Source: Bacteroidota bacterium
Lineage (GTDB): Bacteria > Bacteroidota > Ignavibacteria > UBA10030 > UBA8401
Assembly: GCA_008933835.1 (NCBI GenBank)
Contig: WBUG01000021.1
Span: 1-46,125, forward strand
Length of the DNA: 46,125 nucleotides
Direction: 5' to 3'
Under the pieces are notes generated by a model, which was not told the origin of the DNA, ran no database searches, and saw nothing but the letters and a program-made list of their open reading frames with translations. The number at the start of each line of letters is the position of its first letter. Within the stretch, counting starts at the first letter, position 1. A program made the translations under genes and the position numbers. Of this stretch, positions 1,788 to 18,499 are shown in pieces.

Positions 1788-1816
1788 TTAGACGCACCAA
1801 CAATGAATCTGGTTCC
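1788..1816 (-). promoter_or_regulatory. Putative ECF sigma promoter (autoregulation)
   Basis: Read on the minus strand, GGAACC (1816-1811) is followed 18 bases later by TCTAA (1792-1788), an arrangement like GGAAC/TCTAA-type ECF promoters. The 16-mer TTGTTGGTGCGTCTAA at 1803-1788 differs by one base from 13303-13318 in front of the efflux operon. The inferred start site near 1781 leaves about a dozen bases before the sigma ATG. Assignment rests on the shared motif and has not been tested. Confidence 0.6.
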
Positions 1817-1823
1817 AAAGAAA

Positions 1824-1852
1824 AAAGGACCGGTCAACAACCCCGGTCCTTT
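1824..1852 (-). terminator. Rho-independent terminator of the Hc1-like gene
   Basis: Perfect 10-bp stem AAAGGACCGG / CCGGTCCTTT with a 9-base loop, running into a T-rich tract on the minus strand (the A run 1818-1826). It lies 18 bases beyond the stop of the Hc1-like gene at 1871 and insulates it from the sigma gene promoter just downstream. Confidence 0.85.
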
Positions 1853-13165: not shown

Positions 13166-13291
13166 CCCCGCTGCAGCAATCAGGACGGTCCTCTCCCTTG
13201 CTTACCAACGACTCTCTCCGTACCTTTTCGCTCTGAACGCCGATAGTGGTCTCCGTTCGGCGTGCAGGGGCGTTTTTACCCCCTCCCGGGA

Positions 13292-13318
13292 CAACTTTTC
13301 GCTTGTTTGTGCGTCTAA
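13292..13318 (+). promoter_or_regulatory. Putative ECF sigma promoter of the efflux operon
   Basis: CAACTT (13292-13297), 16 bases, then TCTAA (13314-13318). The 16-mer TTGTTTGTGCGTCTAA (13303-13318) matches the region in front of the window's ECF sigma gene at 15 of 16 positions; the -35 parts are less alike and the spacers differ (16 against 18). Because the -10 abuts an in-frame ATG at 13319, that ATG cannot be translated from this promoter, which favours the ATG at 13364 as the gene start. Confidence 0.6.
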
Positions 13319-13363
13319 ATGACGTATCCCGTTCCTCATCAACGACTTTCCCCCGGCCCTCTT

Positions 13364-14656
13364 ATGAAGATCCCACAGTTGTTCCTCCGGTTCAGCCTCC
13401 TTTCCCGGCGTTCCCGCATCCTCATCAGTATCGTGATACCCGCCCTCCTGATCGTCCTCCTGTTCCTGATGACATCGGACGGCGTCGACGCGTCGTCGGA
13501 CCTCATCATCACCCCGGCCATCGGTGATTTTTCGGTGACCATCACCACGACGGGGGAACTGCAGGCGAAGAGCTCCATCGAGATCAAAGGACCCGAACAG
13601 GCGCGCGCCGCCGGCATCTGGCAGATGAAGATCTCGAACCTCATCGCCGAAGGGACGGTGGTGAAGAAGGGAGAGTTCGTGGCCGAACTGGACAAGGCCG
13701 AGGTCGCCAACCGCCTGAAAGAGTCGGAGCTCTCGGTCCAGAAACTGGACGCGCAGTACACCCAGGCGAAGCTGGACAGCACGCTCGCCCTCTCGCAGGC
13801 GCGGGACGAGCTCATCAACCTGCAGTACAGCCTGGAAGAGAAGAAGATCATCCTTGAGCAGTCCACCTACGAAGCCCCGGCGGTGCAACGGCAGGCGCAG
13901 ATCGACCATGACCGCGCACGCCGTTCGCTGGCGCAGGCAAAGAAGAACTACGTGACGAAGACGAAACAGTCCATCGCCAAGATCCAGGCGGTGGAGGCGG
14001 ACCTGCGGAAGGAACAACAGCGGATGGCGATCATGGTGGACGTGATGAAGCAGTTCACCATCCTGGCGCCGGCGGACGGTATGGTGGTGTACGCGCGGGA
14101 ATGGAACGGAAAGAAGAAGGTGGTGGGAGCCACGCTGAGCCCGTGGGAGCCGACGGTGGCGACGCTGCCGGACCTCACGACCATGGAGTCCATCACCTAC
14201 GTGAACGAGGTCGACATCCAGAAGATCGCGGTCGGACAGCCGGTGACGCTGCGGCTCGACGCCGATCCGAACAAGAAACTCGCCGGCACGGTGACGAACG
14301 TGGCCAACATCGGCGAGCAGCGTCCGAACTCCGACTCCAAGGTGTTCGAGGTGCGCATCGTCGTCACCGCGCAGGACACCACACTGCGTCCGGCCATGAC
14401 GACGGCGAACGAGATCCTCGTCGCCTCTGCCGCGAACGTGCTCTCGGTTCCGCTGGAGGCCATCCATACCGACCAGGGCGTGACGTTCGTCTATCTCAAG
14501 AAAGGCGGGGTCGTCCGGCAGGCGGTGACGCTCGGTCTGCAGAACGAGAACGCCGCGGTGGTCACCGCGGGGCTCCGTCCCGGCGATGCGGTGTACCTCT
14601 CCCCTCCCCCCGGTGCCGGGGAGGCCCCCATCAATCCGCTGCAGGCGTCGCTGTGA
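13364..14656 (+). CDS. MacA/HlyD-like periplasmic adaptor protein
   Basis: A 430-residue membrane fusion protein. A single N-terminal anchor (ILISIVIPALLIVLLFLM) is followed by the barrel-lipoyl half (TTTGELQAKSSIEIKGPE, EGTVVKKGEFVAELD), a long helical hairpin (residues about 110-240, rich in Ala/Gln/Lys/Glu), the second lipoyl strand set (FTILAPADGMVVYA), and beta-barrel and membrane-proximal domains (VGQPVTLRLDADPNKKLAGTV, VPLEAIHTDQGVTFVYL). It would link an inner-membrane permease to a TolC-type duct. The start at 13364 is preferred over 13319 because the putative promoter -10 ends at 13318. The stop overlaps the permease start (GTGA). Confidence 0.9.
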   Translation: MKIPQLFLRFSLLSRRSRILISIVIPALLIVLLFLMTSDGVDASSDLIITPAIGDFSVTITTTGELQAKSSIEIKGPEQARAAGIWQMKISNLIAEGTVVKKGEFVAELDKAEVANRLKESELSVQKLDAQYTQAKLDSTLALSQARDELINLQYSLEEKKIILEQSTYEAPAVQRQAQIDHDRARRSLAQAKKNYVTKTKQSIAKIQAVEADLRKEQQRMAIMVDVMKQFTILAPADGMVVYAREWNGKKKVVGATLSPWEPTVATLPDLTTMESITYVNEVDIQKIAVGQPVTLRLDADPNKKLAGTVTNVANIGEQRPNSDSKVFEVRIVVTAQDTTLRPAMTTANEILVASAANVLSVPLEAIHTDQGVTFVYLKKGGVVRQAVTLGLQNENAAVVTAGLRPGDAVYLSPPPGAGEAPINPLQASL

Positions 14657-16044
14657 AGGAGACGCGTATCGCCGCGGCGTTCCGCCGGTTCGTCATCGCG
14701 CACGGACTGCTGAGCAACTTCCTCACCGCCGTCGAAGCCATCACGCGGAACAAGCTCCGCTCCACCCTCACCTCGCTGGGCATCGTCTTCGGCGTGGCCT
14801 CCGTCATCTCGATGCTCGCCATCGGCCGCGGCGCCCAGCAGGAGATCCTGGACCGGATGCGCCTGCTGGGGACCAACAACATCATCATCACCCCCATCGT
14901 GGAGCAGGAGGAGGGGAAGGCCGAAGGGAACGAATCGGAGAAGACGCGCGAGAAGAAGAAGTTCAGTCCGGGCCTCACCCTGGCCGATGCGCGGGGGATC
15001 GGGACGGTCATCCCCGCCGTGGAATCCGTCAGTCCCGAAGTGATCCTCGAGACGACCGCCATTCGGGAAGGGTTGAAACGGACGACGAAACTGGTGGGTG
15101 TGGACACGACCTTCTTCCGCCACACCGACTTCGAACTGGCCGCCGGATCGTTCTTCTCGCCGCAGCAGCACGAACGCTCCTTGCCGGTGGCGGTGATCGG
15201 GCACGCCATCAAGACGAAGTTCTTCACACGGGAGGACCCGATCGGCCGGCAGATCAAGTGCGGCAAGCTGTGGCTGACCGTGGTGGGGGTGCTCAAGGAA
15301 CGGAACATCTCCAAACAGAACATCCAGCACCTCGGTCTGCGAGACTACAACTACGATATCTACTCCCCCGTCAACACCGTCCTGCTGCGGTACAAGAACC
15401 GCTCCCTCGTCACGCGCCGCGACATCCAGAACGCCGCCCGTGAGGGGAACAACAACTCGTCCGACGAGGAGGAGACGAAAAAGGCGGTGAACTATCACCA
15501 GATCGACCGCCTGGTGGTGCGGGTGCAGAACTCGGCGCAGATCCGTCCGGTGGCCGACGTGGTGAGCCGCATGCTGCAGCGGCGCCATAACGGCGTGGTG
15601 GACTTCTCCGTGACCATTCCGGAGGAACTGCTGAAGCAGGAGCAGCGGACGAAGGAGATCTTCAACATCGTGCTCGGCGCCATCGCCTCCATCTCCCTCG
15701 TCGTGGGCGGCATCGGCATCATGAACATCATGCTCGCCTCGGTGCTCGAGCGGACGAAGGAAATCGGCATCCGCCGGTCGGTCGGCGCGACGCGGAAGGA
15801 CATCATTCTCCAGTTCCTCTCCGAAGCGACCACCATCAGCGTGAGCGGCGGCATCGTCGGTATCCTTCTGGGCCTGGGCATCAGTACGGTCATCGAACGG
15901 ACGGCCGGCATCCTCACGATCGTCTCCCTCTCGTCCGTGGTCATCTCGTTCGCCATCTCCATCTCCATCGGCATCGCCTTCGGATTCTTCCCCGCCCGCA
16001 CGGCGGCGTACCAGGACGTCATCCAGTCGCTCCGGTACGAATGA
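14653..16044 (+). CDS. MacB-like ABC transporter permease (no ATPase domain)
   Basis: 463 residues from a GTG overlapping the adaptor stop. It shows the MacB_PCD / FtsX architecture: first helix (LRSTLTSLGIVFGVASVISMLAIGRGAQ) after the EAITRNK amphipathic lead, a large periplasmic domain (about 70-330) with a charged Glu/Lys-rich insertion, and three helices at the C-terminus (LGAIASISLVVGGIGIMNIMLASVLERTKEIGIRRSVGATRKDI and two more). True MacB carries an N-terminal ATPase; here it is absent and no separate ATPase gene occurs in the operon, so one must be supplied from elsewhere. Confidence 0.9.
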   Translation: MKETRIAAAFRRFVIAHGLLSNFLTAVEAITRNKLRSTLTSLGIVFGVASVISMLAIGRGAQQEILDRMRLLGTNNIIITPIVEQEEGKAEGNESEKTREKKKFSPGLTLADARGIGTVIPAVESVSPEVILETTAIREGLKRTTKLVGVDTTFFRHTDFELAAGSFFSPQQHERSLPVAVIGHAIKTKFFTREDPIGRQIKCGKLWLTVVGVLKERNISKQNIQHLGLRDYNYDIYSPVNTVLLRYKNRSLVTRRDIQNAAREGNNNSSDEEETKKAVNYHQIDRLVVRVQNSAQIRPVADVVSRMLQRRHNGVVDFSVTIPEELLKQEQRTKEIFNIVLGAIASISLVVGGIGIMNIMLASVLERTKEIGIRRSVGATRKDIILQFLSEATTISVSGGIVGILLGLGISTVIERTAGILTIVSLSSVVISFAISISIGIAFGFFPARTAAYQDVIQSLRYE

Positions 16045-16060: not shown

Positions 16061-17539
16061 ATGAAGCACCGACCAATCCTCTTCATGCTGACGCTCCTCC
16101 TTGCCGCCGCACCGGCGGCGAGACCGCAGACCGCCGGCTCCCCGGTCACGGTCACGCTCACGCTCGCCGAATGCATCCGGATGGGCCATCTGAGCGGACC
16201 GAACGCACGGATGGCCGCGGCGGCGTACGAGAGCCGGAAGCACCGCTACGAGGCCTACACCTCACGATTCCTCCCACAGCTTTCGGTCAGCGGGGATGCC
16301 CCGCAGTTCATTCGTTCCATCAACAGCATCACCCAGCCGGACGGCAGCAGTTCGTACCTCCTGCAGCGCCAGGCTCAGTCGTCCGTCTCGCTGGCGCTGG
16401 CGCAGGAACTGCCGTGGACCGGGACGCAGATCTGGGTCTCGTCCGCGCTGAACCGGCTGGACAATCTCGAAACACGCTCCTCCTTCTACCGTTCGACGCC
16501 GCTCTCGCTGTCGCTCCGCCAACCGCTCTTCAGCATCAACACGACCGCGTGGACGTACGAACAGGAGGAACTGACGTACCGTTCGTCGCACCGCGAGTTC
16601 GTCGAAGCGATGGAAGACGCCGCCATCGACGTCACCAACAAGTTCTTCGGGTTCTACCTGGCTTCCATGACCGTCGCCAACGCGCGATTGAACCTCTCCA
16701 TCAACGACACGCTCTATCAAGTGACCCAGGGACGGTTCAACGTGGGGAAGATCGCCGAGAACGACCTTCTCCAGAGCGAACTGGCCGTGCTGAACGCCCG
16801 GACCAACTATGAGAACGCGCTCATCGACCTCGAACGGGCGAAACGGAACCTCCTGCACGCCGTCGGTCTGCCGGAGGGAACGGAGCTCGCCGTCATTCCG
16901 GACGAATCGGTGCTCTCCGGTATAGTGGACCCGGCTGAAGCGCTGCGGTACGCCCGAGAGAACCGGAGCGACATGCTCTCGTTCGAACTGCAGAAGCTCT
17001 CCGCCGAACGGAGCATCCGTCAGGCCGAATCGTCCAACTCGCTCTCCATGACGGTGTCGGCGAACATCGGCCTGAACCAGAAAGCGAACGGACTGCAGGA
17101 CGCGTACGCGGGTCTCTTGGACCAGCAGCAGTTCTCCGTCCAGTTCCAACTGCCGCTCCTCTCCTGGGGCGCCGGCAGCCATGCAGTAGAGGCGGCACGG
17201 GCCGAAGCGTCCCGCGTCGACGCCTCCATCGCCACGCAGCGCTTCACGCTCGAGCAGGAGGTGTCGTACCAGGTGCGCCGGTTCACCCAGCTGCAGCGGC
17301 AGGTGATGCTCGCCGGGAAGGCGGACACCGTGGCGCAGCGGCGGTACGACGTGGCGCGCGAGCGCTTCGTCATCGGGAAGATCGACGTCACCAATCTCTT
17401 CCTGGCGCAGTCCGAGAAGGACAATGCGTACCGTTCTCGCATCCAGGCACTGTGGGATTACTGGACGACCTACTACCGGCTCCGCCGGCTCACGCTGTAC
17501 GATTTCGCCACACGGCAGCCGCTGGTCGCCTCCGAGTGA
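16061..17539 (+). CDS. TolC-family outer-membrane efflux protein
   Basis: 492 residues with a signal peptide (MLTLLLAAAPAARPQ). The two structural repeats of the OEP family are visible as long helical stretches: EAMEDAAIDVTNKFFGFYLASMTVANARLNL with QVTQGRFNVGKIAENDLLQSELAVL, and EQEVSYQVRRFTQLQRQVMLAG with RRYDVARERFVIGKIDVTNLFLAQ. The R-Y/F-xVGKIxxxxLLxxE signature occurs in both halves. It begins 16 bases after the permease and completes the tripartite exporter. Confidence 0.9.
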   Translation: MKHRPILFMLTLLLAAAPAARPQTAGSPVTVTLTLAECIRMGHLSGPNARMAAAAYESRKHRYEAYTSRFLPQLSVSGDAPQFIRSINSITQPDGSSSYLLQRQAQSSVSLALAQELPWTGTQIWVSSALNRLDNLETRSSFYRSTPLSLSLRQPLFSINTTAWTYEQEELTYRSSHREFVEAMEDAAIDVTNKFFGFYLASMTVANARLNLSINDTLYQVTQGRFNVGKIAENDLLQSELAVLNARTNYENALIDLERAKRNLLHAVGLPEGTELAVIPDESVLSGIVDPAEALRYARENRSDMLSFELQKLSAERSIRQAESSNSLSMTVSANIGLNQKANGLQDAYAGLLDQQQFSVQFQLPLLSWGAGSHAVEAARAEASRVDASIATQRFTLEQEVSYQVRRFTQLQRQVMLAGKADTVAQRRYDVARERFVIGKIDVTNLFLAQSEKDNAYRSRIQALWDYWTTYYRLRRLTLYDFATRQPLVASE

Positions 17540-17577
17540 CGATGCACCCGACCGTTCCTCACGAACCGAGAACCATC

Positions 17578-18063
17578 ATGCAACGCACCGCACGCATCCT
17601 GATCGTCCTGACGCTCCTCACCGGAGCGTCGACTGCACAGTCCGACACGATGGCACCCGCTCCGGTGTTCGGCCGGTACCGTCCCGCGGCGGACCCGCAC
17701 CGGCAGTTGAAGGAAGCGGTCGCCGAAGCGGCCGGAAGCCGCCGGATCCTTCTGGAGGTCGGTGGTGAATGGTGCATCTGGTGCCACCGTCTCGACACGC
17801 TCTTCCTCCGGAACCCCGACCTGACGGGGTACCTGAAGCGGCATTTCGTGCTCGTCAAGATCAACGTCAGTCCGGAGAACGAGAACAAGGAATTCCTGAA
17901 GGCGTATCCGAAAGTGCCGGGATACCCTCACCTCTTCGTGCTGGAGAACGACGGCAGATTCCTGCATTCGCAGGATACGGGCGAACTGGAGAAAGGAAAA
18001 GGGCACGACCGCGAGAAGGTGATGGAGTTCCTCCGGCGTTGGACCCTGCCGAGAAAGGAATGA
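17578..18063 (+). CDS. Exported thioredoxin-like protein with WCxWCH motif
   Basis: 161 residues from the ATG at 17578, giving a signal peptide (MQRTARILIVLTLLTGASTA); an ATG at 17542 is an alternative without it at the N-terminus. The active-site motif GGEWCIWCHRLD (residues 63-73) and the following FLRNPDLTGYLKRHFVLVKINV, cis-Pro segment VPGYPHLFVLENDG (typical 'xYPT/Hxxxx') identify a thioredoxin_7/DUF255-like fold. It may act as a disulfide reductase or copper-binding redox protein in the periplasm. Four bases separate it from the next lipoprotein gene, which has several cysteines and could be a partner. Confidence 0.8.
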   Translation: MQRTARILIVLTLLTGASTAQSDTMAPAPVFGRYRPAADPHRQLKEAVAEAAGSRRILLEVGGEWCIWCHRLDTLFLRNPDLTGYLKRHFVLVKINVSPENENKEFLKAYPKVPGYPHLFVLENDGRFLHSQDTGELEKGKGHDREKVMEFLRRWTLPRKE

Positions 18064-18067
18064 CCTC

Positions 18068-18466
18068 ATGAGACCGACGTTCGCATTACTCGTTTTGCTG
18101 ACCGCCGCGACCGTCACCGGCTGTGAGACGCTCGGCTCCGGCAGCAGGGAATCCGACGAGCAGGACCTTCGTCAGCGCCGGGAACAGATACAACTCCTCC
18201 TCTCCTCCGCGGCCTGCTCCGGAAGCGCCGAATGCCGGTACACGGCGTTCGGTTCGAAGCCGTGCGGAGGTCCGTGGGAGTATCTCGTGTACCCCGCAAC
18301 GATGGACACCGTCCGGTTCCTGGCGATGGTGAAGGCGTACAACGAGCGTGAGGATGCCTATAACAGGACCTGGGGGATGATGTCCGACTGCATGGCCGTC
18401 GGACCTCCGGACAGCGTCGCCTGCATCGACGGGCGATGCCGGGCGGTCGCAAAACCGCTCCCCTGA
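18068..18466 (+). CDS. Conserved Cys-containing lipoprotein of unknown function
   Basis: 132 residues with a signal peptide and lipobox (TVTGC, Cys about 19). The mature part has paired cysteines (SSAACSGSAECRYTAFGSKPCGGPWEYLVY, then SDCMAV and ACIDGRC), consistent with disulfides. The 'CxYTAFGSKPCGGPWEYLVYP' pattern recurs in hypothetical lipoproteins of Bacteroidota as I recall them, with no function I can name. It is the last gene of the efflux operon; its disulfides may be substrates of the thioredoxin-like neighbour. Confidence 0.7.
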   Translation: MRPTFALLVLLTAATVTGCETLGSGSRESDEQDLRQRREQIQLLLSSAACSGSAECRYTAFGSKPCGGPWEYLVYPATMDTVRFLAMVKAYNEREDAYNRTWGMMSDCMAVGPPDSVACIDGRCRAVAKPLP

Positions 18467-18470
18467 CCGC

Positions 18471-18499
18471 TTGACTTCCGGCCCCGCCTTTTCTACATT
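18471..18499 (+). promoter_or_regulatory. Sigma-70-like promoter of the CBS-domain gene
   Basis: TTGACT (18471-18476) and TACATT (18494-18499) are separated by exactly 17 bases. A strong GGAGGAGG ribosome-binding site sits between the inferred start site and the ATG at 18535. Confidence 0.65.

Follow-up and report, generated by a model that had tools for sequence, protein, structure and literature searches.

An RpoE-like sigma factor with a probable envelope-stress regulon, and an efflux operon that may be its weaker member, in an Ignavibacteriales relative

The window analysed here is the whole of contig C104 (46,125 nucleotides) from a draft genome of 3,565,079 bases in 163 contigs. Among the products of the window is an RpoE-like ECF sigma factor, which very probably drives several cell-envelope genes in what looks like a sigma-E-type envelope-stress regulon. 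A drug-efflux operon for a MacA/HlyD-type adaptor, a permease and a TolC-type channel lies 11.5 kb from the sigma gene (Table 1) and is best read, from its upstream region and those of its orthologs, as a weaker and lineage-restricted member of this regulon. Since a housekeeping-type promoter (P1) and an ECF-type candidate (P2) both precede the operon, two tandem promoters are the most likely arrangement.

Table 1 Positions of the genes and promoter elements in the window
Feature	Position	Strand	Basis
Putative anti-sigma factor, 388 aa visible, cut by contig end	2..1165	-	position, profile match
RpoE-like ECF sigma factor, 199 aa	1170..1769	-	Pfam Sigma70_r2 and r4_2; NCBIfam; structure match
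Putative ECF autopromoter: GGAAC 1816-1812, 18-base gap, GTCTAA 1793-1788	1788..1816	-	ortholog conservation
Terminator-like stem-loop and T run, ending the Hc1-like gene	1826..1844	-	terminator scan
Hc1-like gene	2083-1874	-	Hc1 domain
P1, putative housekeeping-type promoter TTG-N20-TACCTTTT	13198..13228	+	window scan, ortholog conservation
P2, candidate ECF-type promoter: ACAAC 13291-13295, 17-base gap, GTCTAA 13313-13318	13291..13318	+	-10 identical to that of the autopromoter
MacA/HlyD-type adaptor, 430 aa, start ATG 13364	13364..14656	+	HlyD_3, RND_mfp
MacB-like permease (MacB_PCD and FtsX), no ATPase domain	14653..16044	+	Pfam, NCBIfam
TolC-type outer-membrane channel	16061..17539	+	OEP, TolC
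Thioredoxin/DsbH-like protein	17578..18063	+	Thioredoxin_7; DsbH-like below cut-off
Small putative lipoprotein	18068..18466	+	open frame

The sigma gene and the efflux operon had been linked in a first-pass annotation by a shared 16-mer, TTGTTGGTGCGTCTAA upstream of the sigma gene (1803-1788, minus strand) and TTGTTTGTGCGTCTAA upstream of the operon (13303-13318, plus strand). Both lie where it placed them, with 15 of 16 bases identical, and the window holds no third copy at up to three mismatches. The genome-wide scan that it proposed, run at the same tolerance, adds a single match with a broken -10 and no further copies. By our own arithmetic, chance would supply about 0.001 additional 16-mers at up to one mismatch over both strands of 46 kb, a descriptive figure given that the search pattern was built from the two sites themselves; the pair is not background. 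The -35 elements, which the first-pass annotation had left unplaced, are located here at 1816-1812 (minus) and 13291-13295 (plus). The functional identity between the two sites consists of CGTCTAA and AAC, the remainder of the 16-mer being spacer, and the 16-base identity, mostly spacer, is itself no evidence for co-regulation of the sigma gene and the operon. The last nine spacer bases, TTGTTkGTG, agree at eight of nine positions, compared with one to four for all other pairs among six promoter sites of this genome. Because the spacers are unconserved across orthologs of either gene, the match is most likely a coincidence that made the pair of sites visible to a reader. It is very improbable that TTGTTkGTG is a second regulatory element, bound by an activator or contacted as an extended -10, that ties the two promoters together separately from the other members of the regulon; were it one, the pump would be co-induced with the sigma factor itself. 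An origin of the 16-mers as copies of one DNA segment, a duplicated or mobile promoter, is scarcely credible and was rejected because the flanks differ: the pair is unique in the genome at 15 of 16 bases, but the identity ends at both borders, and the -35, the spacer length (18 versus 17) and the downstream bases are all different.

The sigma protein consists of domains 2 and 4 alone (Sigma70_r2 at residues 39-105 and r4_2 at 138-190, Pfam) joined by a short linker, which is how ECF sigma factors are defined (PMC8103513). Its nearest NCBIfam model is RpoE (TIGR02939) at 152.6 bits, below the curated equivalog cut-off of 236.15, and the protein is RpoE-like without being filed as RpoE; the nearest solved structure is the E. 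coli sigma-E chain 1or7. Directly downstream, in the window as in all 34 loci read, lies an anti-sigma-like gene whose product has an N-terminal anti-sigma-like domain, one putative transmembrane segment and a large extracytoplasmic part. Its profile matches are to the N-terminal domains of RsiW and RseA/MucA. An AlphaFold model of the N-terminal domain (pLDDT 84, pTM 0.47) has anti-sigma domains as its best 16 PDB matches, none of them significant at E 0.001.

Upstream of the sigma gene, the putative autopromoter follows just after the terminator-like stem-loop. Comparison of more than 50 upstream regions of sigma orthologs, some of them duplicate records, yields 27 distinct sites of the form GGAAC-N17/18-CGTCTA(A/T). 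The search demanded GGAAC and GTCTA, whose invariance is therefore by construction; the C preceding GTCTA was not demanded and is present in 27 of 27, while no bases are conserved between the two boxes. Since these sites share AAC in the -35 and CGT in the -10, the autopromoter is convincing and the sigma factor very probably drives its own gene, as the first-pass annotation had proposed. One ortholog from the same genus (L104, genome G001) lies directly after the Hc1-like gene and lacks the GGAAC/CGTCTA autopromoter, the MoxR site being kept, so autoregulation seems to have been lost there. In many other orthologs (L005, L008, L013, L117 and others) an ATG (GTCTATATGAGTGA) abuts the -10, upstream of the expected transcript start; automated annotation may make these sigma genes too long, just as choosing 13319 would lengthen the adaptor.

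The same promoter form recurs elsewhere in the genome. GGAAC-N16/17-CGTCTA has 11 matches against two for the reversed control pattern, most of them inside genes and four outside plausible coding frames; AAC-N16/17-CGTCTAA has nine against three, and the -10 variant CGTCTAT has five. Several of the sites recovered by the proposed genome scan stand before envelope genes. They precede, besides the sigma gene itself, genes for a two-PDZ periplasmic protein, a MoxR-type ATPase operon and a Sel1-repeat protein, and an AGAAC-type site precedes uppS, which is followed by a POTRA/BamA-type gene. Of the 20 closest loci of the PDZ gene, 16 carry a perfect GGAAC-17/18-CGTCTA(A/T); a site also precedes uppS in six loci, this genome's included, and the MoxR operon in four genomes. 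Because such sites precede the PDZ gene, uppS-bamA and the MoxR operon, the regulon reads as one of envelope stress. A CGTCTAA within mtnA, about 2.4 kb upstream of degP (C89:45165) and recurring in several relatives, was not counted, since it lies inside coding sequence and is explained by the conserved peptide ERMRxVxRL. Four genomes (L268, L269, L270 and L271) share a conserved inverted repeat, ATGTCAG[AC]CAC ... GGTGTCTGACATC, located after the sigma-type promoter and before the start codon of MoxR. It could be REP-like or could form a hairpin in the leader; similar GATGTCAGAC/GTCTGACATC palindromes occur before macA in L134 and L135.

The efflux operon departs from a canonical MacAB-TolC system, in which MacB carries an N-terminal ATPase: its permease has MacB_PCD and FtsX only. 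No ABC ATPase gene was assigned within the operon, and the energy source of the pump is not evident. The Thioredoxin_7 match of the fourth gene was obtained on a longer reading (17452-18063), and the putative lipoprotein has no family match. The adaptor start at 13364, which the first-pass annotation had regarded as settled by the promoter, proves right on other grounds: the ATG is kept at the same codon in seven of eight orthologs and lies one codon earlier in the eighth, so it stands independently of any promoter. The alternative ATG at 13319, chosen by a simple ORF caller, directly follows the P2 -10 and would lie upstream of any P2 transcript. After the operon, a housekeeping-type promoter sequence TTG-N20-TACATTGG (18471-18499) stands before a CBS-domain-like gene, which is probably transcribed separately.

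P1, absent from the first-pass annotation, lies about sixty bases upstream of P2. Its full form occurs once in the window against 0.01 expected and is kept in all eight close macA orthologs against about 0.03 expected per region; the looser TTG-N20-TAnnTT is itself enriched in the window (seven versus 0.44 expected). The element resembles the Bacteroidota primary-sigma promoter, with TTTG around -33 and TAnnTTTG at -7 (PMC7366714), differing in its last base, T instead of G, in a host that is an Ignavibacteriales relative. Scans with the sigma-70 consensus and Rfam gave no match at P1 or P2. Between the two promoters lies a 7-bp inverted repeat, ACGCCGA ... TCGGCGT (13238-13264), in a stretch that is longer in the window than in the orthologs; the repeat could attenuate transcripts from P1.

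P2 combines a perfect -10 with AAC at the right spacing, in a -35 that reads ACAAC and lacks the GG present in nearly every core site. In no macA ortholog does GGAAC precede CGTCTAA. Four of the eight close orthologs (G000, G001, G020 and G021) carry CGTCTAA itself 33-45 bases ahead of the adaptor start, G011 and G019 have aligned one-base variants (CGTTTAA and CGTGTAA respectively), and the element is missing in G003 and G017. A matrix trained on 47 promoter sites from other genomes gives P2 a score of 14.4, lower than that of any training site (minimum 18.9); within its own genome the sigma, PDZ and uppS promoters score 18.0, 19.2 and 20.0. None of 300 first-order shuffles of its own region scores as high (p = 0.0033, the floor), and p is 0.0066, 0.0066 and 0.033 in three orthologs with an intact CGTCTAA and 0.01 and 0.06 in two with a one-base change, values that are not multiplicable as independent because the orthologs are related. 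By our own arithmetic, about ten scores at the level of P2 would arise by chance among some thousands of upstream regions of a genome, so the case for P2 rests on the orthologs, themselves related.

These data bear on whether P2 works at all. If its CGTCTAA, at 13312, were a chance or decaying remnant, the operon would be transcribed from P1 alone, as might be suspected from a P1 kept in eight of eight orthologs beside a P2 kept in just four, from the poor -35 and from a -10 that is mutated or missing in G011, G019, G003 and G017. We regard this as unlikely, since a heptamer with a background of about 0.015 per 200 bases turns up 33-45 bases ahead of the adaptor's first codon in four genomes, which belong to two genera, and AAC stands at exactly the right spacing in the window. 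It is more improbable still that P2 is a genuine ECF promoter used chiefly by a different ECF sigma factor. The genome has 15 sigma-70 region-2 genes, most of them ECF-sized, with about a dozen ECF-type sigma genes besides this one, and in Flavobacterium several ECFs may share a single CGT-type motif (PMC9723704). Against this reading, no GGAAC/CGTC-type autopromoter was found before the other sigma genes, and the P2 -10 heptamer is identical to that of the RpoE-like factor's own promoter. The first-pass assignment of the operon to the sigma regulon thus stands in part: it is favoured by the shared -10 heptamer at the right spacing from AAC, and tempered by the missing GG, by a -10 intact in only four of eight close orthologs and by the better conserved P1, which means that the operon is not simply driven by the sigma factor.

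We consider it probable that a sigma/anti-sigma envelope regulon is combined with tandem efflux promoters, P2 adding modest stress-induced transcription. From the observed sequence elements and their conservation, we infer promoter status, the sigma factor that reads P2 and the inducing signal. The membrane anti-sigma factor, whose gene lies immediately downstream, would hold the RpoE-like factor until envelope stress releases it; once free, the sigma factor would drive GGAAC-N17/18-CGTCTA(A/T) promoters before its own gene, the PDZ gene, uppS-bamA and the MoxR operon. P1 would supply constitutive basal transcription of the efflux operon, and P2, with its sub-optimal -35, would most likely add its modest contribution in the genus and a few relatives.

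The system is closest in design to E. coli sigma-E (RpoE)/RseA, which likewise pairs an autoregulated ECF sigma factor with a membrane anti-sigma factor encoded downstream, uses a GGAAC -35 and a GTCTAA -10, and has targets that include BamA and periplasmic quality control; BAM genes are under sigma-E control in E. coli (PMC6737893). It differs in phylum, in a sigma factor below the RpoE equivalog cut-off, and in predicted targets that add uppS, upstream of the bamA-type gene, the MoxR operon and possibly the MacA/permease/TolC operon. SigW/RsiW of B. subtilis and AlgU/MucA of P. aeruginosa are sequence relatives of the sigma and anti-sigma factors with different targets, and SigW uses a different -35 (PMC8103513). 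Within the Bacteroidota, Flavobacterium psychrophilum SM6 has a CGT-box ECF promoter class with a sigma/anti-sigma pair; unlike here, type IX secretion genes form the core of its regulon, and the available part of that report names no MacA/TolC-type efflux operon (PMC9723704). Among the papers searched, none was found that places MacAB in an ECF regulon.

Overall, this is ordinary biology in a new clade. What it offers is an envelope-stress regulon open to testing in an uncultured clade of the Ignavibacteriales, for which none was found described in the literature searched. The core of this regulon (the sigma gene itself, the PDZ protein, uppS-bamA and the MoxR operon) recalls that of E. coli sigma-E. 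The efflux operon, whose P2 -10 is found in some close relatives and has decayed in others next to a P1 that stays fixed, may be joining or leaving that regulon.
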